Positions 17,877 through 26,504 of a DNA stretch of 61,415 nt are shown here, piece by piece. The stretch covers positions 1-61,415 of the forward strand of contig JABFSE010000011.1 of the NCBI GenBank assembly GCA_013140765.1, written 5' to 3'. Every line of letters begins with the position of its first letter. Positions within the stretch are counted from its first letter, which is position 1. Below the pieces are notes generated by a model. It saw only the letters and a program-made list of their open reading frames with translations. It had not been told where the DNA came from and did not search any database. The position numbers were made by a program, and so were the translations under genes. The DNA is from Sulfuriferula sp. (GTDB lineage: Bacteria; Pseudomonadota; Gammaproteobacteria; Burkholderiales; Sulfuriferulaceae).

Positions 17877-19547
17877 ATGGCTTTATTGTCTCGTGGGCAT
17901 GACGTGTCTAATCTCTTTTCTATACGCCCTTATCGTTTTGTACCTAGCTTGCTCACAGTGGTGTTGTGCCTGGCTTGGTTGTTGCCTGGCTTGATAGGGC
18001 ATGAGCCTTGGAAAGGTGACGAAGCTGAGACGATGGGGCTGATACATAGCATATTGTCAGGTATGCCTGTGGCAGTGCCGACGCTGGCTGGTGAGCCTTG
18101 GCTGGGTGTGCCGCCGTTATATAGCATAGTGGGGGCAATGTTTGCGCACCTCTTTGCGCCTTGGTTGCCTGCGCATGATGCGGCGCGGCTGGCGGGTGGC
18201 TTTTTTGTGTTGCTGGCGTTGTTGTTTGCTGGGTTCGCTGGGCGTGAGTTATATGGTAGTGAGCATGGGCGTTTAGCCGCGCTAGTGCTGGTCGGTAGCG
18301 TAGGGTTGTGGGTGCGTGCGCATGAGTCTATTCCGCAAACGGCGTTGTTGGCGGGCGTGGCTATGGTCGGCTATGGTGCGGCTTTGTCGGTGCGACGAGC
18401 GTATCTGGGCGGTGCAATAGTCGGCACGGGGCTGGGTATTAGCTTTATGAGTGTGGGCGTGGTGGAGACGTTTGCATTGGCGATGGCATTGTTGGCCTTG
18501 CCTGTGTTTAGCCCGCACTGGCGGCAGTGGCGGACGTTGCAAGCGGCGTTGATGACGTTGTTGGCGGTCGCACCTTGGTTGCTTATTTGGCCTTGGGCGT
18601 TGTGGCAGGCCGCACCTAGTTTGCTAATTGATTGGTGGCATAGTCAGGTGCAAGCGCGTTTGGTTTTTTGGGGTGCGTCTGGCGTGACGTGGACGGCTTA
18701 TTATTTCAAGTTTTTACCTTGGTTTGCTTGGCCTGCTTGGCCGTTGGCGTTGTGGACGTTGTGGCATGCGCGGCGCGAACAATTGACTTCGACGGGTGTG
18801 GTTTTGCCTGTGGCAATGTGGTTAAGTATGACGTTAGTGTTGAGTTTTACGGTTGATCCGTCGCCTGATAATGGTTTGCCGATATTGATACCGCTGGCTT
18901 GGTTGGCGGCGGGCAGTGCGTTTACTTTGCGCCGTGGGGCGGCGAATGCCTTGTATTGGTTTGCGATGATGAGTTTTGGTGTGGTGGCGATTGCGGCATG
19001 GATTTATTGGAGCGCGTTTGATTTGGGTGTGCCTGCGCAATTGGCGGCGCATGTGCGTAAATTACAGCCGAGTTATGTGGGGGATGTGCATCCTTTCCCT
19101 GTGCTGATGGCGGTGCTGTATTGCGTTGCTTGGGTGGTATTGCTGGTGCGTATGCAACGTTCCCCTCAGCGTCCGTTGATTGCGTGGGCGGCGGGGATGG
19201 CGTTGACTTGGGGGCTGGCGGCGAGTTTGTTTGAGCGTCCTATGGACGAGCGTATGGGCTATGATGGGGTGATGAAGTCTATGCAGGTGCATTTGCCTAG
19301 TCGTTCTTGTGTTGCTAGTGAGGGCGTGAATGCGGGTGCGCGGGCGATGCTGGATTATTATTTGGGCGTGCAAACCTTGCGGGTGGAAGATACGGTTGCG
19401 CCTACGTGTTCGGTGTTGTTGGTTGAGATTGATGCTGATACGGATGTGATACCGACGCGTGCTGGCTGGCGTGCGGTGTGGCATGGTCATCGTGCGGGCA
19501 ATCGTACCGAGCATTTTATTTTGTATCGAAAAATTAAGCGCAAATAA
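17877..19547 (+). CDS. ArnT/PMT-like integral membrane glycosyltransferase
   Basis: 556 residues, with about ten to twelve hydrophobic segments. The first helix is followed by GHEPWKGDEAETMGL, the periplasmic loop with an acidic pair that marks GT-C enzymes of the ArnT/PMT type using polyprenyl-phosphate sugars. The C-terminal part is a short soluble periplasmic domain (ACVASEGVNAGARAM region). Donor and acceptor are not predictable; lipid A or protein glycosylation are possible. The stop abuts the mobA start with no gap, so the two are probably co-transcribed although functionally unrelated. Confidence 0.78.
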   Translation: MALLSRGHDVSNLFSIRPYRFVPSLLTVVLCLAWLLPGLIGHEPWKGDEAETMGLIHSILSGMPVAVPTLAGEPWLGVPPLYSIVGAMFAHLFAPWLPAHDAARLAGGFFVLLALLFAGFAGRELYGSEHGRLAALVLVGSVGLWVRAHESIPQTALLAGVAMVGYGAALSVRRAYLGGAIVGTGLGISFMSVGVVETFALAMALLALPVFSPHWRQWRTLQAALMTLLAVAPWLLIWPWALWQAAPSLLIDWWHSQVQARLVFWGASGVTWTAYYFKFLPWFAWPAWPLALWTLWHARREQLTSTGVVLPVAMWLSMTLVLSFTVDPSPDNGLPILIPLAWLAAGSAFTLRRGAANALYWFAMMSFGVVAIAAWIYWSAFDLGVPAQLAAHVRKLQPSYVGDVHPFPVLMAVLYCVAWVVLLVRMQRSPQRPLIAWAAGMALTWGLAASLFERPMDERMGYDGVMKSMQVHLPSRSCVASEGVNAGARAMLDYYLGVQTLRVEDTVAPTCSVLLVEIDADTDVIPTRAGWRAVWHGHRAGNRTEHFILYRKIKRK

Positions 19548-20108
19548 ATGGTTGATGCGGTGATATTGGCGGGCGGTGAAGCGCGGCGCATGGGCGGGCA
19601 TGATAAAGGTTTACTATGCTGTGCTGGCGTGCCGCTGGTGCAATGTGTGATTAGTCGTATTGCGCCGCAAGTCGATAATGTGTGGATAAGTGCGAATCGG
19701 CATGTTGATGACTATGCGCGATTTGGCTACGCTGTTATTCAAGATGCGAGTGCTGACTATTTAGGGCCGTTGGCGGGGGTGTTGGCGGGATTGCGTGTGG
19801 CGCAGAGCGAATGGGTGTTGATAGTGCCATGTGATACGCCTTATTTACCGATGGATTTGGTGGCGAAAATGATGGCGAGCGCGGACGATAATGTCGATGT
19901 GGTGGTTGCCGAGGCAGAACGCTTACATGCGACGGTGATGCTGTGTCGTCGCGATTTAGCGGCTGGTTTGCGTGTTTTTTTAGCGGCGGGTGGGCGTAAA
20001 GTACGCGCATGGCAGGCACAACAGCGGTGTGTGGTGGTGTCGTTTGAGAACGAAGCCGCTTTTCAGAATATGAATACGCCTGCGGAGTTAGCAGGCGCAG
20101 CTAGTTAA
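19548..20108 (+). CDS. mobA: Molybdenum cofactor guanylyltransferase
   Basis: 186 residues. The nucleotide-binding signature ILAGGEARRMGGHDKGLL opens the protein, followed by DYLGPLAGVLAGL, the metal-binding VPCDTPYLP, and NMNTPAEL near the end, all as in MobA, which joins GMP to molybdopterin for bis-MGD enzymes. No molybdoenzyme is in the window. Its 3' end overlaps the convergent DUF2063 gene by eight bases, leaving no room for a terminator between them. Confidence 0.93.
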   Translation: MVDAVILAGGEARRMGGHDKGLLCCAGVPLVQCVISRIAPQVDNVWISANRHVDDYARFGYAVIQDASADYLGPLAGVLAGLRVAQSEWVLIVPCDTPYLPMDLVAKMMASADDNVDVVVAEAERLHATVMLCRRDLAAGLRVFLAAGGRKVRAWQAQQRCVVVSFENEAAFQNMNTPAELAGAAS

Positions 20109-20883
20109 TCGTGCCTAATAGACAGCCCTGCTGATGTAAGTCACGCAGCAATGTCGCACCAAAACTGACGAGTGCTTGCGGGTCGGGGTGCTGCATTTCA
20201 GTGGCGAGCTGTGTGAGTGCTTGCTCTCCTGTTAAGTGCTGTGGTGTGAGGATTTCTATGAGGCGCGCGGTGATGGCGTTTTGTACGTTGAATCTGACAT
20301 CGTCGTTTTGGTCGCGATAAACAAGTAAATAAGTGGCTGTTTCAGGCGCGGTTAAAGGACGAAACCGTTTGCTAATTTGATGGACTGGATAGCGGTACAT
20401 TAAATTAGCCATGACGGGGTTGAGCAGTGGTATGGCGGTGAGCAGGTCGCCGTTGGCGTTATATGATGGTGTGTCTTGGTCGCGATTGGAGATAGATAGC
20501 ACTAGCTCTATCCATTCGTAATGTGCTAATTCTAGGGTGAAATCGGGGTAATCAGCTTGGGTGTGCCATTCGTTTTGTAAAAACTGGATAAATTCATCAG
20601 GTACTTGGCGAAAGTAGGGCGTATGGCATGGATGGGTGGCATAAAATTCACGCACCAGCCGCCGCCATTTACGTACCCCAACTAGGCTGGAGAGTACGGG
20701 AAAGCACGCCGTGACTGCGCCTTCAACGTTGTTAAATAATAATTCTGCATATAATCGCATCCGTGCAGGCTGAACCTTGCGCGGTTTTTTGGCGTGTTGC
20801 GGATCGCGGATAAATTGCGTGAATTCGCGTTGATATTGTTGCCAGTCGGCAAGCTCAGGCTGTGCGGCGTTGATGTTGTGCAT
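20101..20883 (-). CDS. DUF2063 / HvfC-BufC-type partner protein of the MNIO enzyme
   Basis: 260 residues. The N-terminal DUF2063 domain is clear ([63 protein letters not shown]). A smaller C-terminal part (about 185-255) looks like a winged-helix or peptide-recognition region. In known systems this protein forms a complex with the DUF692 enzyme and presents the precursor peptide. Its start lies 29 bases inside the DUF692 gene, so expression is coupled. Last gene of the cluster. Confidence 0.88.
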
Positions 20884-21700
20884 ATTGGCGTTGGTAATCG
20901 GCGATGCGTTGCACTTCTGGCAATAATTCGTCTAATGGCGGAATGTTCAAATCACGCTCTAATAACGTGGGCACGACACCGCAGTGTTGATAAGTGGTTG
21001 CCAATAAATCCCATACTGGCTCGATAACATCTGCGCCGTGCGTGTCTATAATCAAATTGGGTGTTTCTTGATAATGCCCTGCAGTATGCACATAGACGAT
21101 GCGTTCAGCAGGGAGTTGCTGAATAAAGTGTACGGGGTCAAAGCCGTGATTGACGCTGTTGACATAGACGTTATTGACATCTAAATGCAAATCGCAATCG
21201 GCTTCTGCTAGGACGGCGAGTATAAAATTGAGCTCGTCCATATTCGCCACTGGCGCGGCGAGATAATACGATGCGTTCTCGACGGCAATGCGGCGTTCGA
21301 GTATGTCTTGGGTGCGGCGTATACGTGCGGCAACGTGTTTGACGGCTTCTTCGGTAAATGGAATCGGCAATAAATCATATAAATGTGCGTGATCGCTACA
21401 ATAGGATAAATGCTCGGTGTATAGCGCAATCTGATGTTGATGTAGAAAGGTTTTGACGCTGTGCAAAAATAGCTCATCCAAGGGCTTAAAGCCACCTAGC
21501 GAGAGTGTTAAACCATGGCACACAAAGGGATGCTGTTCGGTCAGTTGACGTAAGCTACGACCACGTTTACCACCTAGTCCCATCCAGTTTTCTGGGGCTA
21601 TTTCAAAAAAATTGATGGCATCGGGGGTATGGGTCAGCAACTCGTTAAAATGCTCGCGTCGCAGACCCAACCCCGCACCGAGTAGGCGCGGGTTAATCAT
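20855..21700 (-). CDS. DUF692 multinuclear non-haem iron oxidase (MNIO, HvfB/BufB-like)
   Basis: 281 residues, a TIM barrel of the DUF692 family, whose studied members (MbnB, HvfB, BufB) use two or three irons and oxygen to modify cysteines in a peptide, making oxazolone-thioamide or thiooxazole groups that bind copper. Candidate metal ligands are all present: H62 ([11 protein letters not shown]), E96/H97 (YTEHLSY), E141 (VENASYY), D174/N177 (HLDVNN), H205/H209 (YVHTAGH), D219/H221 (IDTHG) and E248 (LLERD). The start is six bases after the repeat-peptide stop. With two precursor-like peptides upstream, I infer one enzyme acting on both. Confidence 0.92.
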
Positions 21701-21706
21701 GCTAGA

Positions 21707-22045
21707 TTATTTTTTTGCAGCGCACTTAGCTTCAGGTGCTTTTTTGTCAGCAGAACATTTAGCATCGCTTGCTTTTTTATCAGCGGCGCATTTTGCATCG
21801 TGCGCTTTTTTGTCTGCTGCGCATTTAGCGTCGTGCGCTTTTTTGTCAGCAGCGCATTTAGCATCAGCGGCTTTTTTGTCGGCAGCGCATTTAGCGTCGG
21901 CGGCTTTGGCATCTGCAGTCATGTAACCTTGACCTAAAGATTGGCTGGCAAATGGGTTTTGAGCAGCATTTGCAACAGGTGCCATTGCAACAGTAGCGGC
22001 AAAAGCGGTACCAATAACGATACTTAAAGTAGATTTAGCGTTCAT
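21707..22045 (-). CDS. Cys-repeat peptide, candidate MNIO substrate (six 11-residue repeats)
   Basis: 112 residues from the ATG at 22045, with GGAG seven bases upstream; an in-frame TTG at 22057 lies on that ribosome site and is unlikely. A signal peptide (about 1-28, ending ANAA) is followed by NPFASQSLGQGYMTADA and then six tandem repeats of the form A-x-D-A-K-C-A-A-D-K-K (residues 48-112), each with one Cys. HvfA-type RiPP precursors have EGKCG cores; here Gly after Cys is replaced by Ala. The segment before the repeats is nearly the same as in the neighbouring HvfA-like peptide, and the MNIO gene follows after six bases. The product may be a periplasmic copper-binding peptide; this is inference. 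The N-terminal part is not repeated. Confidence 0.82.
   Translation of the reverse strand: MNAKSTLSIVIGTAFAATVAMAPVANAAQNPFASQSLGQGYMTADAKAADAKCAADKKAADAKCAADKKAHDAKCAADKKAHDAKCAADKKASDAKCSADKKAPEAKCAAKK
21710..21904 (-). repeat. 33-bp in-frame tandem repeat encoding the Cys repeats
   Basis: Six copies of a 33-bp unit (last one 30 bp) with third-position and single-codon variation (second residue Ala, His, Ser or Pro). DNA similarity among copies is high, so copy number could change by slippage or recombination. Confidence 0.85.
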
Positions 22046-22131
22046 TTGTATCTCCAAAGATTAAAAAGTTTACAGCAAATTTATAAGTATCATCATGACA
22101 CTTACGCTTACCTTACGCAGGTAATCTCAAA

Positions 22132-22159
22132 TCAGATGCAGGGCGCGTAAGGAGGTTCC
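22132..22159 (-). promoter_or_regulatory. SigmaE-type (ECF) promoter upstream of the Cys-repeat peptide
   Basis: On the minus strand GGAACCT, 16 bases, TCTGA: six of seven positions of the classical sigmaE -35 (GGAACTT) and a full -10 at the consensus spacing. It lies 87 bases before the start codon and between the two peptide genes. The ECF gene of the same cluster is the natural candidate to read it. No second copy was found ahead of the DoxX-like gene or the sigma gene. Confidence 0.6.
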
Positions 22160-22174
22160 CGTTATCTGTGAAAA

Positions 22175-22480
22175 TTATTTTTTGCCTTTATTTGCGCCAC
22201 ACTTGCCTTCGCCGCATTTACCGTCTTTCATTTTTTTAGCAGGTGCGGTGGCGGCGGGTGGTGTTGCTGGTGTGGCATTCATTTTTGCGCCACATTTAGC
22301 GTTGCTGGCTTTGTCCATGCTCGCACCACATTTGCTATCAGCGGCTTTGGTGCTTGCGTCTGCGACCATGTAACCTTGCTGTAGCGACTGCGAGACAAAA
22401 GGTGAGGTTAGGGCGTGTGCGAAGCCAGTGGATAATAATACAGTACCAGCGGCAATAGTTATCAATGTAATTTTGTTCAT
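22175..22480 (-). CDS. HvfA-like Cys-rich RiPP precursor
   Basis: 101 residues with AAGGAG before the ATG. A signal peptide (about 1-23, AHA) is followed by SPFVSQSLQQGYMVADA, then four cysteines: two in SKCG and AKCG (C51, C63) and two in the C-terminal GKCGEGKCG (C89, C94), after a Pro/Ala-rich linker. The C-terminal motif is that of HvfA-type precursors, in which MNIO enzymes convert the Cys to copper-binding groups. Lies 44 bases after the anti-sigma gene and before the Cys-repeat peptide gene, with which it shares its leader-like segment. Confidence 0.85.
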   Translation of the reverse strand: MNKITLITIAAGTVLLSTGFAHALTSPFVSQSLQQGYMVADASTKAADSKCGASMDKASNAKCGAKMNATPATPPAATAPAKKMKDGKCGEGKCGANKGKK

Positions 22481-22524
22481 TTTGTGCTCCTTTGTGAAAT
22501 TTAGTTAAGTTCGTCTAGGTCAAG

Positions 22525-22788
22525 TTACTGATTTTTTTGGCGCATCGCTGCATGCATTTTTTGCTGTATGCGTTGCCTTGCTGGTTCAGATAGCTCCACT
22601 TGCGTATAGCGTTCAGGCTCGCGTGCTATGTGACGCATGGCGCGTGTAATGACCTGCATTTGCCGATTAAAATTGCGGCAACTGCTACATAGCATCAAAT
22701 GTAAGCGCATTTGCCAACGAGTGAGCAATGGTAATTCATGTTCATTACCGCTAGATACGCGCTGTGAAAAATCCTTGCAGGACAACAT
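22525..22788 (-). CDS. Zinc-finger type anti-sigma factor
   Basis: 87 residues. Starts MLSCKDFSQRVS and has H-x3-C-x2-C (HLMLCSSCRNF), the zf-HC2/ZAS anti-sigma signature; no membrane segment follows, so it is a soluble form, as in the Neisseria MseR-type proteins. Starts two bases after the sigma-factor stop. It would hold the ECF sigma factor inactive until metal or oxidation of the Cys cluster releases it (family knowledge). Confidence 0.85.
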   Translation of the reverse strand: MLSCKDFSQRVSSGNEHELPLLTRWQMRLHLMLCSSCRNFNRQMQVITRAMRHIAREPERYTQVELSEPARQRIQQKMHAAMRQKNQ

Positions 22789-22790
22789 TG

Positions 22791-23348
22791 CTAGGCTCCA
22801 ATCTTTCTATCCAGACATTGCCGTAATCCCATACGACTGCGATACAACATCGTCCATACATTAGTCGGGCTGATATTGAGTTCCTGACAAATAATTTCGG
22901 TTTCTTCGCCATTTATTTCGCGCAACATGAATAATTGCGCTAGATTTTTGGGCATATGGTCTAAGCAATAATGCAGTGCCTGCCAAAATAGTTTGTTATC
23001 TAGCATGGCAACGGGGTCGCCCCAGTCGGATGGCTTTTCTGCCCAATGGTGGGTGCGATCAAATAAATCGTCCGCATCAGGTAGGGTGTCCACGGCGGTT
23101 TCTATATCTTCCACTGAGGTTTCGCGGCTATAGCGGCGTATGCTGTCTATGACTTTGTTGCGCAATATGCTGGTGAGCCAAGTGCGTTCACTGGCGTTGC
23201 CCTGATAGCTGTCTATATGTGATAACGCGGCAAGCAAGCATTCTTGTACTGCATCTTCTGCTTGCCCGCTGTCACGCGTCATGGTCATGGCGTAACGGTA
23301 TAAGTAATTACCGTGATCTGCCAGCCAGGTTTCTGGGTTGAGTGCCAT
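22791..23348 (-). CDS. ECF-family RNA polymerase sigma factor
   Basis: 185 residues with region 2 (NYLYRYAMTMTRDSGQAEDAVQECLLAAL and TWLTSILRNKVID) and region 4 (AQLFMLREINGEETEIICQELNISPTNVWTMLYRSRMGLRQCL), and the long linker with W residues seen in relatives that control DUF692 operons. No region 1 or 3, so ECF type. Followed by its anti-sigma gene. Target promoter inferred: the GGAAC/TCTGA site in this cluster. Confidence 0.92.
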   Translation of the reverse strand: MALNPETWLADHGNYLYRYAMTMTRDSGQAEDAVQECLLAALSHIDSYQGNASERTWLTSILRNKVIDSIRRYSRETSVEDIETAVDTLPDADDLFDRTHHWAEKPSDWGDPVAMLDNKLFWQALHYCLDHMPKNLAQLFMLREINGEETEIICQELNISPTNVWTMLYRSRMGLRQCLDRKIGA

Positions 23349-23371
23349 AAAGATGCGTTATCCTCGGTATG

Positions 23372-23833
23372 TTATATTTTGTATTTGCGCATGAGCCAGT
23401 AATCGACGCTTAATTTACCTGGGCCGCTAAACAATAACGGTAGGAATAGTATCAAGTAAATCAACGGTAGCTTATAGCCGTTATCGCACACATTATAGCC
23501 GTTGCCCGCATGTACGCTCATCCATGCAACGATGGTTAAGATAATCAATTGCAGGCTGAAAAAGCGTGTGCCTAAGCCAATAACCAATGCCGCTGCGCCT
23601 AGTAGCTCCGACCAAGTGGAAATTTGCCAGCTAATATCAGGTGGTACGATGCTGAATGGAAAGGGGAACTTATCTTGAATGTCGGCAAACCAGTTTACGC
23701 CTGTGAATTTCTCCCAGCCTGATTCGCCAAACTCCCAAGCGAGTAGTAAGCGTAAGCCTAATTGCGGCAAAAACTCACCGATGCGGTTAAGCTGGGTGAG
23801 TAAGTAATGAATAAAATGGGTCGTTACATTCAT
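23372..23833 (-). CDS. DoxX-family membrane protein (HvfD-like)
   Basis: 153 residues from the ATG at 23833, which has GAGGAG eight bases upstream; an earlier in-frame start is less well placed. Four hydrophobic segments in DoxX arrangement (LGLRLLLAWEFGESGWEKFTG, SELLGAAALVIGLGTRFF, LQLIILTIVAWMSVHAG, LPLIYLILFLPLLF). DoxX proteins accompany DUF692 clusters, where they may act in quinone-linked redox or export steps; the exact job is not known. First gene of the RiPP cluster. Confidence 0.83.
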   Translation of the reverse strand: MNVTTHFIHYLLTQLNRIGEFLPQLGLRLLLAWEFGESGWEKFTGVNWFADIQDKFPFPFSIVPPDISWQISTWSELLGAAALVIGLGTRFFSLQLIILTIVAWMSVHAGNGYNVCDNGYKLPLIYLILFLPLLFSGPGKLSVDYWLMRKYKI

Positions 23834-23895
23834 GTCAGGTCTCCTCGTTGTTGTAATGATTAGTCGCATCAACTTGCTCGACCTGACAATTATTT

Positions 23896-24219
23896 TTAAT
23901 GGGTGTTAAAGTTGACCTCACCACCGCCTTGTTGGGCAATCATGTTGGCTAAACTGCTGAATAATTCTTCGCCATTACGTGAGTTGCGCCATGCGCCGTC
24001 TTGCCATTGATAGTGAAACCCGCCTGATTTTGCCGCTACCCACATTTCTAACATGGCGATTTGGCGGTTGACGATGATTTTGCCGCCTGCGCCGCAATCA
24101 ATTTCCAATACATTGCCTGCGGCAAGTTCAAAATCAACATCACCGTCTGCATTTTCAAGCGCAGATTCGATTTGACGGAAGGTTTCATCGGTAAGCTGGT
24201 TAAATTCGGTTTCTGTCAT
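23896..24219 (-). CDS. cyaY: Frataxin-like iron-binding protein CyaY
   Basis: 107 residues. The acidic first helix (MTETEFNQLTDETFRQIESAL) and the strands GNVLEIDCGAGGKIIVNRQI, EMWVAAKSGGFHYQW and WRNSRNGEELF match the frataxin fold. CyaY binds iron and modulates IscS-dependent Fe-S cluster assembly. Divergent from lptM with 34 bases between, a pairing common in proteobacteria. It runs in the same direction as the RiPP cluster and could be read through into it, 62 bases apart. Confidence 0.93.
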   Translation of the reverse strand: MTETEFNQLTDETFRQIESALENADGDVDFELAAGNVLEIDCGAGGKIIVNRQIAMLEMWVAAKSGGFHYQWQDGAWRNSRNGEELFSSLANMIAQQGGGEVNFNTH

Positions 24220-24253
24220 GTTAGACTATGTCCTTTTATTGATTTAATAAATT

Positions 24254-24388
24254 ATGCAATCTCGTGCATTTTCAACTGCTATTCGTCTGTTAGTCGTCGC
24301 CGCACTGCTGAGTTTGTCAGCTTGCGGGACGAAAGGCGCACTGTATCTTCCTCAAAAACCATCCCCAACGCAAGCGACATCATCATGA
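24254..24388 (+). CDS. lptM: Small outer-membrane lipoprotein LptM
   Basis: 44 residues (MQSRAFSTAIRLLVVAALLS, then LSACGTKGALYLP). Lipobox LSAC, Cys at residue 24, followed by the conserved GxKGPLYLP-like motif of LptM (YifL), which assists LptD assembly. The stop overlaps the lysA start (ATGA). Upstream of lysA in many proteobacteria. Confidence 0.88.
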   Translation: MQSRAFSTAIRLLVVAALLSLSACGTKGALYLPQKPSPTQATSS

Positions 24389-25605
24389 ATTTAACAGCAT
24401 TATCCGCAACCCAGCTCAATAACATTGCCGCAACACACGGTACACCTTGTTATGTTTATGATCACGCCGCCTTGGTAGCCGCGTTTCAGGCGTTTGATAA
24501 CGCATTGCAAGGTCGTGCGCATTTGGTTTGCTTTGCGGTGAAAGCAAACCCGAGTTTGGCGATATTAAATACTTTTGCACAGCTAGGTGCGGGTTTTGAT
24601 ATTGTTTCTGGTGGCGAATTAGCGCGTGTTATTGCGGCGGGTGGTGATGCGGCTAAAGTGGTGTTTTCGGGCGTGGGTAAGACAGCCGATGAAATGCGAC
24701 TGGCGCTGACGCACGGGATTAAGTGTTTTAACGTTGAGTCAACCAGTGAACTATCCCGCTTGAACCAAATTGCGGGTGAAATGGGCAAAATTGCACCCAT
24801 TAGCTTGCGCGTCAATCCTGATGTGGATGCAAAAACCCACCCGTACATTTCTACAGGCTTAAAAGGCAATAAATTTGGCGTAGCGCATGAAGATGCCGTG
24901 CAAATTTACCAACTTGCTGCGACCCTGACTAATTTGAAAATCACAGGGATAGACTGCCACATCGGCTCACAATTAACAGAAACGCGCCCCTTTGCCGATG
25001 CGCTGGATAGGGTGCTGGCATTAGTCGATGCGCTGGCAGAAATGGGTATACACTTAGACCACCTAGATTTAGGTGGCGGGCTAGGAATATGTTACGACGC
25101 AGAAACACCGCCACCAGTGGCTGATTATATTGCCGCGCTACTGCAAAAGCTGGCTGGTCGCACGCAAACTATTTTGCTGGAGCCAGGTCGTGCGTTGGTG
25201 GGTAATGCAGGCGTATTGTTGACGCGAGTGGAATACTTGAAAGCAGGGGTAGAAAAGAATTTCGCCATTGTAGATGCGGCTATGAACGATTTGATGCGTC
25301 CCGCTTTATATGATGCTTACCACGCTATCGTGCCTGTCAACCCACGTACATCGCCGACTACGGTTTACGAAGTAGTAGGGCCAGTGTGCGAAACGGGTGA
25401 TTTCCTCGGGCACGCACGTGAGTTAGCGTTAGCGGAAGGAGACTTGTTGGCGATTATGTCGGCAGGTGCATACGGCATGTCGATGAGCTCTAATTACAAT
25501 ACTCGCCCGCGTGCGGCTGAAGTGATGGTGCGAGATGGACTGGCAACGCTGGTGCGTGAACGTGAGCAAATTGCTGATTTGTTCAAGCTAGAGCGCGTAC
25601 TTTAG
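24385..25605 (+). CDS. lysA: Diaminopimelate decarboxylase
   Basis: 406 residues from the ATG at 24385; the frame stays open another 324 bases upstream, but that part covers lptM and has no similarity. PLP enzyme that makes lysine from meso-diaminopimelate. Visible: FAVKANPSLAIL with the PLP lysine, the HIGSQL stretch, the glycine loop LDLGGGLGICYD, EPGRALVGNAG and the C-terminal PVCETGDFLGHAREL with the active-site Cys. Confidence 0.96.
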   Translation: MNLTALSATQLNNIAATHGTPCYVYDHAALVAAFQAFDNALQGRAHLVCFAVKANPSLAILNTFAQLGAGFDIVSGGELARVIAAGGDAAKVVFSGVGKTADEMRLALTHGIKCFNVESTSELSRLNQIAGEMGKIAPISLRVNPDVDAKTHPYISTGLKGNKFGVAHEDAVQIYQLAATLTNLKITGIDCHIGSQLTETRPFADALDRVLALVDALAEMGIHLDHLDLGGGLGICYDAETPPPVADYIAALLQKLAGRTQTILLEPGRALVGNAGVLLTRVEYLKAGVEKNFAIVDAAMNDLMRPALYDAYHAIVPVNPRTSPTTVYEVVGPVCETGDFLGHARELALAEGDLLAIMSAGAYGMSMSSNYNTRPRAAEVMVRDGLATLVREREQIADLFKLERVL

Positions 25606-25904: not shown

Positions 25905-26201
25905 ATGTACACGATTAAACGCACTGATAATTTTGATGCTTGGATAGACAGCCTTAAAGATAGGCTTACTTATTTGCGGCTTAATAAACGCTTGGATAAA
26001 GTCGCACGTGGGCTTTTAGGTGATGTTGAACCCGTTGGTGAGGGGGTGTTTGAGATGCGTGAATTTTTTGGTGGCGGCTGGCGTATGTATTACATTACGC
26101 GTGGCGATGTGTTGATTGTCATGCTGGGCGGCGGCGACAAATCGACACAGAGCCGCGACATTGCTGACGCGATTGCGCTTGCTAAATTGATTGAGGATTA
26201 A
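25905..26201 (+). CDS. RelE/ParE-superfamily addiction toxin (HigB-like)
   Basis: 98 residues. Starts MYTIKRTDNFDAWIDSLKD and shows RLDKVARGLLGDVEPVGEGV, EMREFFGGGWRMYYI and LLGGGDKSTQSRDI-like segments, the pattern of the small phage-derived addiction-killer group in the RelE/ParE superfamily. Followed after three bases by its antitoxin, the reversed (toxin-first) order. Likely a ribosome-dependent mRNA nuclease, by family. Confidence 0.85.
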   Translation: MYTIKRTDNFDAWIDSLKDRLTYLRLNKRLDKVARGLLGDVEPVGEGVFEMREFFGGGWRMYYITRGDVLIVMLGGGDKSTQSRDIADAIALAKLIED

Positions 26202-26204
26202 ATC

Positions 26205-26504
26205 ATGACTAAACGGATTAAAATAGACGACTTGCCTAATTTTGACATGGCAGAAACGCTTAAAAACAGTGAGGATATTGCGATGTATCTGAACTTGGTA
26301 CTTGAGGAAAACGACCCCGCAGAACTCGCGCACGCGCTAGGTGTGATTGCTAAATCCCGTGGCATGATGGCGGTTGCGCAGGATACGGGTATTACGCGTG
26401 AGGCTCTGTATAAAGCCCTTAGACCTAACAGCCGCCCGCGATTTGATACTATCAGCAAGGTATGCCAATCGCTGGGGGTTAAGCTGGTCGCTGTTGCTAC
26501 TTAA
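26205..26504 (+). CDS. HigA-like addiction-module antidote
   Basis: 99 residues. N-terminal FDMAETLKNSEDIAMYLNLV and a C-terminal helix-turn-helix (GMMAVAQDTGITREALYKAL, then PRFDTISKVCQSLGVKL), matching the antidote proteins that accompany the short RelE-type killer proteins. Expected to neutralise the toxin and repress the operon through the upstream palindrome. Confidence 0.86.
   Translation: MTKRIKIDDLPNFDMAETLKNSEDIAMYLNLVLEENDPAELAHALGVIAKSRGMMAVAQDTGITREALYKALRPNSRPRFDTISKVCQSLGVKLVAVAT

Follow-up and report, generated by a model that had tools for sequence, protein, structure and literature searches.

Two related HvfA-like precursors with different cysteine cores before one MNIO maturase in a Sulfuriferula operon

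Can one maturase of the MNIO (DUF692) family act on two precursor peptides whose cores differ? The question is raised by a unit of seven genes in Sulfuriferula sp. (assembly GCA_013140765.1, contig JABFSE010000011.1, positions 1 to 61,415 of the forward strand; this whole stretch of 61,415 nt is called the window here). The seven genes share the minus strand (bounds 23836-20101) and follow one another in the order doxX/hvfX, extracytoplasmic function (ECF) sigma factor, zinc anti-sigma factor, precursor A1, precursor A2, hvfB (the MNIO) and hvfC (the DUF2063 partner). An earlier note on this DNA had proposed this gene content; family models confirmed it, the upper bound being 23836 and not 23833. 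Genomes with several bufferin-like precursors and only one MNIO pair have been reported, and it is left undecided there whether one pair modifies several related precursors or some are left unmodified (PMC12452194). The question is directly testable in the present operon. One cassette combines the same leader type, the same enzyme and two cores differing at the position that was most restrictive in tests of FonBC, the enzyme pair of fontiphorin (PMC13097082).

The two precursors are related and their cores are different. A1 has four cysteines, all of them followed by glycine, with GKCGEGKCG close to its end. A2 has six cysteines at an exact spacing of 11 residues, the repeat unit being ADAKCAADKKA, and the next residue is alanine (five times) or serine (once), never glycine. 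Alignment of A1 with A2 gave 40% identity (E = 2e-16), and the motif PFxSQSLxQGYM is common to both. A hidden Markov model (HMM) trained on 127 leaders from other loci, with the window excluded, found an HvfA-type leader in both peptides, and it is this HMM, not a dedicated signal-peptide predictor, that provides the signal or leader call. The earlier note had set an HvfA-like GKCG peptide beside a separate repeat peptide; the idea that the two are unrelated was rejected on the mutual alignment and the common leader HMM. A1 passes the KCG repeat domain model NF050137 and falls below the cut-off of the equivalog model NF050188 (18.9 against 95), so that it is described here as HvfA-like and not as the Haemophilus equivalog. 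When A2 was used as query of its own genome, the only matches were A2 and A1, and the same genome has one MNIO. A GGAG or AGGAG ribosome-binding site precedes each of the two genes.

The core of A2 is under constraint. Comparison of all pairs among its first five 33-bp repeats gave a proportion of synonymous differences (pS) of 0.667 and of nonsynonymous differences (pN) of 0.076, a ratio of 0.11 from pairs that are not independent, while the two shifted frames gave pN/pS of 2.19 and 1.04. It was also found that 44 of the 64 differences fall at third codon positions. The low ratio in the coding frame as against the shifted frames argues for protein-level constraint on the cysteine repeat, including the alanine after cysteine (serine once). 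The idea that A2 is a chance open reading frame within a DNA repeat was rejected on this frame-specific constraint. A search of a plasmid collection returned no relatives of A2.

Glycine is by far the commonest residue after cysteine in such peptides. Across 166 distinct HvfA-like cores (A1 and A2 included) it follows 1079 of 1152 cysteines (about 94%), with alanine at 42, five of them contributed by A2, and serine at 21. A further 29 loci of the order Burkholderiales gave glycine 131 times, serine 7 times, alanine twice and histidine once, the window's own values being subtracted and a few loci being also in the first set. In both counts the cores were delimited by a pattern, which misplaces the limits in a few cases (L045, L207, L210). 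The A2 core without Cys-Gly is the unusual feature of this locus. A single-precursor locus, L257, has DAKCGADKK repeats, similar to those of A2 but with glycine, and A2 thus looks like a known repeat type altered at one position throughout. With a residue other than glycine at each cysteine, A2 offers a natural test of the core residues accepted by the modifying enzyme. A literature search whose scope left out subscription papers and supplements brought up no report of an HvfA pair in which one core is Cys-Gly and the other Cys-Ala.

Our analysis indicates that the unit is likely to be an HvfABC-type (oxazolin/captophorin) copper-metallophore operon, in which two related precursors would be modified by one HvfBC pair to thiooxazole copper ligands. 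The earlier note is supported in placing two precursors with unlike cores behind one MNIO pair in a cluster of HvfABC type. It has been reported that HvfB and HvfC together form 5-thiooxazoles on cysteine (-4 Da each), that the Sec signal is needed for efficient work and that HvfA without its signal sequence receives less than one modification per peptide (PMC13419390); the HvfA signal thus acts as a leader. In the present operon, stress would free the ECF sigma factor from the zinc anti-sigma factor and the unit would be transcribed. HvfC would bind the Sec signal or leader common to A1 and A2, and HvfB would oxidise the cysteines to 5-thiooxazoles. By analogy with the characterised relatives, complete modification would lower the mass of A1 by 16 Da and that of A2 by 24 Da. 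Both peptides would be exported and would bind copper in the periplasm. A2 would probably be the original HvfA, with a core that moved from Cys-Gly to Cys-Ala/Ser repeats, and A1 an added relative retaining Cys-Gly. The gene identities, the common leader, the difference between the cores and the constraint on A2 are directly supported here. In tests of FonBC all position-5 replacements tried blocked processing with the exception of alanine, the extent of alanine processing being unstated in the text available (PMC13097082). Given this tolerance, A2 is plausible as a substrate even with alanine after its cysteines.

Several points weigh against such a role of A2 and of the pair. FonBC acts on repeats with a spacing of 5 residues, leaves a one-repeat peptide unmodified and makes a single modification on a two-repeat AKCGA peptide (PMC13097082); the spacing in A2 is 11, which casts doubt on A2 as a substrate. 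A2 stays below the cut-off of NF050137 (16.8 bits against 19.5) and is therefore described as an HvfA-type leader with a divergent core. Cores lacking Cys-Gly are rare, being 4 of 166 (A2, L034, L206 and L091, the last with two cysteines) and, with at least four cysteines, 3 of 145 (A2, L034, L206). Among the 18 genomes of its own genus, HvfB was over the cut-off in five others; four of these loci could be read on the upstream side and show a single precursor, the fifth being cut by a contig end, so that the pair is found in 0 of 4.

How unusual the pair is was judged with the leader HMM, which replaced heuristic counts of open reading frames; the first heuristic count had given no precursor in 43 loci, of which a looser look gave candidates in some, and one false second reading frame (L071). 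At least 119 places besides the window's own were over the cut-off, and 114 were fetched; five, whose upstream side is near a contig end (G083, G105, G198, G215, G234), were left out. The mixed set of loci was not de-duplicated by organism, and L063 and L130, for example, carry an identical precursor. With the window's own locus set aside, 209 loci were scored; one leader match was found in 161, two in 3 (L113, L122, L126) and none in 45, the last being partly other MNIO types, contig-end cuts or misses. All three pairs come from a single genus, and the fourth genome examined of its family is also paired, making 4 of 4; the genomes with adjacent HvfA-leader pairs in a genus other than the window's are G149, G262, G358 and G386. 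Whole genomes were searched with a leader alignment that included the two leaders of the window, and its own genome (G000) matches by construction. In the class sample at least 113 of 369 genomes match, G000 included. Two or more matches anywhere in the genome were seen in at least 28 of these 113, and two within 2 kb, among the matches listed, only in G000, G149, G262 and G358. In the order sample an E of 0.01 or lower was reached by 63 of 300 genomes, in many cases weakly, and an adjacent pair was seen only in G000. Tandem precursor genes have in addition been reported in the Buf1/Buf2 clusters of bufferins (PMC12452194). The pairing, a form that the earlier note did not know, is therefore not without precedent, and with regard to related genomes the pair is absent from the four readable congeners and present in a distant genus. 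The observation is right and its novelty is partly explained. Two genomes of the class sample, G102 and G226, have four HvfA-leader matches each, none within 2 kb among the matches listed, that is, orphan precursors; two of the four in G102 span only model positions 3-34.

The tandem pairs of the other genus both keep Cys-Gly cores. This is what would be expected if a pair means gene dosage only, with equivalent substrates together offering 10 copper-ligand sites where one alone would offer 4 or 6, and with no functional split. We regard gene dosage as a possible account that falls somewhat short of even chances; it is compatible with the HvfABC explanation, and our estimates for the two are not mutually exclusive. 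On the other hand, the cores of A1 and A2 differ systematically after cysteine, and the A2 repeats hold alanine (serine once) at that position while synonymous sites vary.

A functional split can be put forward only tentatively and seems rather doubtful. After duplication of HvfA one copy would have kept Cys-Gly and the other would, under constraint, have exchanged it for Cys-Ala/Ser at all sites. One HvfBC pair could then make two metallophores differing in metal affinity or filling order, and HvfB itself may have adapted. In HvfB the residues H62, H97, E141, D174, N177, H205, D219, H221 and E248, which we take to be iron ligands, are common to more than 97% of 192 distinct HvfB sequences (the window's included). 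T65, A105 and L251 of the window's HvfB are rare in this set and close to conserved motifs. None of its rare residues is common to four other loci rich in Cys-Ala cores, and the three are accordingly only a lead.

It is unlikely that only A1 is modified and that A2, devoid of the Cys-Gly dyad, is exported unmodified as a free-thiol sink for metal or oxidant. The predominance of Cys-Gly in the 166 cores and its absence from A2 would fit such a division, as would the low score of A2 with the HvfA repeat model, and unmodified precursors have been raised as a possibility (PMC12452194). Yet the leader match is better in A2 than in A1, and A2 stands 6 nt before hvfB; alanine is, of the position-5 replacements tried, the sole one that FonBC accepts (PMC13097082), and the two other cores with at least four cysteines and no Cys-Gly (L034, L206) also come from HvfB loci.

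The origin of the two peptides was approached with a tree of 55 leaders and 48 columns. A2 groups with the single HvfA of the congeners G017 and G004 (support 97/84), and the single HvfA of the congeners G001 and G003 is placed elsewhere with G413 at weak support (80/55). The branch of A1 is long, 1.32 where the median for end branches is 0.15, and A1 is placed beside precursors of Sulfuricellaceae and of G591 (96/96), a position of which the tool warns that long rows are placed unsurely. A sister pair of A1 and A2 is not rejected in the approximately unbiased test (p-AU 0.43), nor does the test reject a clade uniting A1 and the precursors of its genus (p-AU 0.48). A1 and A2 as proven sisters were set aside, since a tree of 48 columns cannot settle this. 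The leader tree points to A2 as the probable HvfA ortholog and to A1 as the added precursor, and the roles of HvfA-like and separate peptide given in the earlier note look reversed. A reading of A1 as a spare copy of little function, decaying or gained by horizontal transfer, with A2 as the working product, is improbable: its long branch, its placement, its weaker leader match and its absence from the four readable congeneric loci would agree with this, but A1 is an intact reading frame with a ribosome-binding site, the PFxSQSLxQGYM motif and four Cys-Gly sites, its long-row position is unsure and sisterhood with A2 is not rejected.

Among known systems the oxazolin/hvf operon of Haemophilus influenzae (HvfA, HvfB, HvfC, HvfX) has the same four gene families and, likewise, a signal-bearing Cys-repeat precursor (PMC13419390). 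It has one precursor with three AEGKCGEGKCG motifs, whereas here there are two and one lacks Cys-Gly. The fontiphorin/captophorin system (FonABC) also joins an MNIO and a DUF2063 partner on Lys-Cys repeats, but these are 5-residue EGKCG repeats, and alanine after cysteine, the natural core here, is there an accepted in vitro test variant (PMC13097082). The bufferins Buf1/Buf2 share with the present unit a secreted Cys precursor, MNIO, DUF2063 and DoxX, and sigma factors are reported for Buf1 clusters and tandem precursor genes for Buf1/Buf2 clusters (PMC12452194). Bufferin precursors are of DUF2282 or 6/12-Cys type; here neither A1 nor A2 had a Pfam match to DUF2282 at E up to 1, and the MNIO scored below the cut-off of the BufB model (283 against 310). 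The pairs of G149, G262, G358 and G386 resemble the present one in having two adjacent leader-sharing precursors before HvfB-HvfC. They differ in that both cores are Cys-Gly and DoxX comes after HvfC and not first, and the 5-11 kb stretches searched gave no match to either the sigma or the anti-sigma factor of the window.

In Haemophilus exposed to hypochlorite, RpoE2 governs the doxX-hvf genes, and the ECF sigma factor with its zinc-binding anti-sigma (ZAS) factor (RpoE2/HrsE) controls the doxX operon from another locus (PMC7907618), whereas the sigma genes here are within the unit. The anti-sigma factor of the unit carries C4-X25-H30-X3-C34-X2-C37, in agreement with the ZAS motif C/H-X23-26-H-X3-C-X2-C described for pairs of RpoE2/HrsE type (PMC7907618); this agreement concerns the anti-sigma factor alone, the sigma factor being known here as of TIGR02943 type. 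Sigma and anti-sigma genes precede A-hvfB-hvfC on the same strand in 15 of 194 other loci of the mixed set, a count made with the window's own sigma factor as query, so that distant sigma factors were missed. In the order Burkholderiales both are beside HvfB in 15 of 29 loci (strand not given), and L146 has the order of the window, dox-sig-asf-A-B-C, but one precursor. Upstream of the single HvfA in G017 (L219:5057-7486) there are genes for peptide methionine sulfoxide reductase, cytochrome b561 and a molybdopterin oxidoreductase, together with one for a Cys-free peptide, rich in Met, Lys and Asp, secreted-looking and without Pfam match; a similar peptide precedes HvfA in G004 (L005:819-1073). 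The upstream genes of G017 give a hint of oxidative stress as the signal.

The seven genes are plausibly co-transcribed, judging from their spacing. The gaps are 23 nt (doxX-sigma), 2 (sigma-anti-sigma), 44 (anti-sigma-A1), 129 (A1-A2) and 6 (A2-hvfB), and hvfB and hvfC overlap by 29 nt. Upstream, cyaY is on the same strand 59 nt from doxX, and a plus-strand MobA-like gene is convergent with hvfC. Curated models (NCBIfam/Pfam) were over their cut-offs for every gene of the unit except the two peptides taken together (Table 1). Pfam scores above cut-off were 68.3 for DoxX in hvfX, 354.4 for MbnB_TglH_ChrH in hvfB and 89.8 for DUF2063 in hvfC; 3bww is a solved MNIO structure and 3dee the solved structure matched by HvfC. 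Sigma-70 promoters (7 found, 7.4 expected) and terminators (8 found, 6.6 expected) in the region were at chance level, Rfam at gathering threshold gave no family in 19000-25000, and a look by eye, without statistics, for a promoter motif common to the upstream regions gave nothing convincing. Two hairpins, one of 9 bp and the other rich in AU, could form in the A1-A2 gap, which might set unequal levels of the A1 and A2 transcripts.

Table 1. Coordinates of the features of the unit in the window
Feature	Position	Strand	Support
hvfX, DoxX-like membrane protein, first gene of the unit	23372..23836	-	NF050144 144.9 bits (cut-off 80); PF07681
ECF sigma factor, TIGR02943 type	22791..23348	-	TIGR02943 190 bits (cut-off 162.2)
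Zinc-binding anti-sigma factor, 87 aa	22525..22788	-	NF052368 60.5 bits (cut-off 50); zf-HC2 23.8, above cut-off
A1, 101-aa HvfA-like precursor	22175..22480	-	NF050137 34.9 bits (cut-off 19.5); leader HMM E = 1.8e-6
A1-A2 spacer, 129 nt, two possible hairpins	22046..22174	-	z = -2.0; 8/200 shuffles fold at least as well
A2, 112-aa precursor, HvfA-type leader	21707..22045	-	leader HMM E = 3.1e-14; tree 97/84; repeats pN/pS 0.11
hvfB, MNIO (DUF692) maturase	20855..21700	-	NF003818 421.7 bits (cut-off 360); PDB 3bww E = 4.1e-78
hvfC, DUF2063 partner protein	20101..20883	-	NF050145 287.9 bits (cut-off 142); PDB 3dee E = 2.4e-14

Anti-phage models gave no match to HvfB, A1 or A2. Further along the window, on the plus strand (25905-26504), there is a toxin-antitoxin-like pair, in which a weak Gp49-like reading frame (21.7 bits, below the cut-off of 23.9) is followed by an HI1420-type addiction antidote (114.9 bits).

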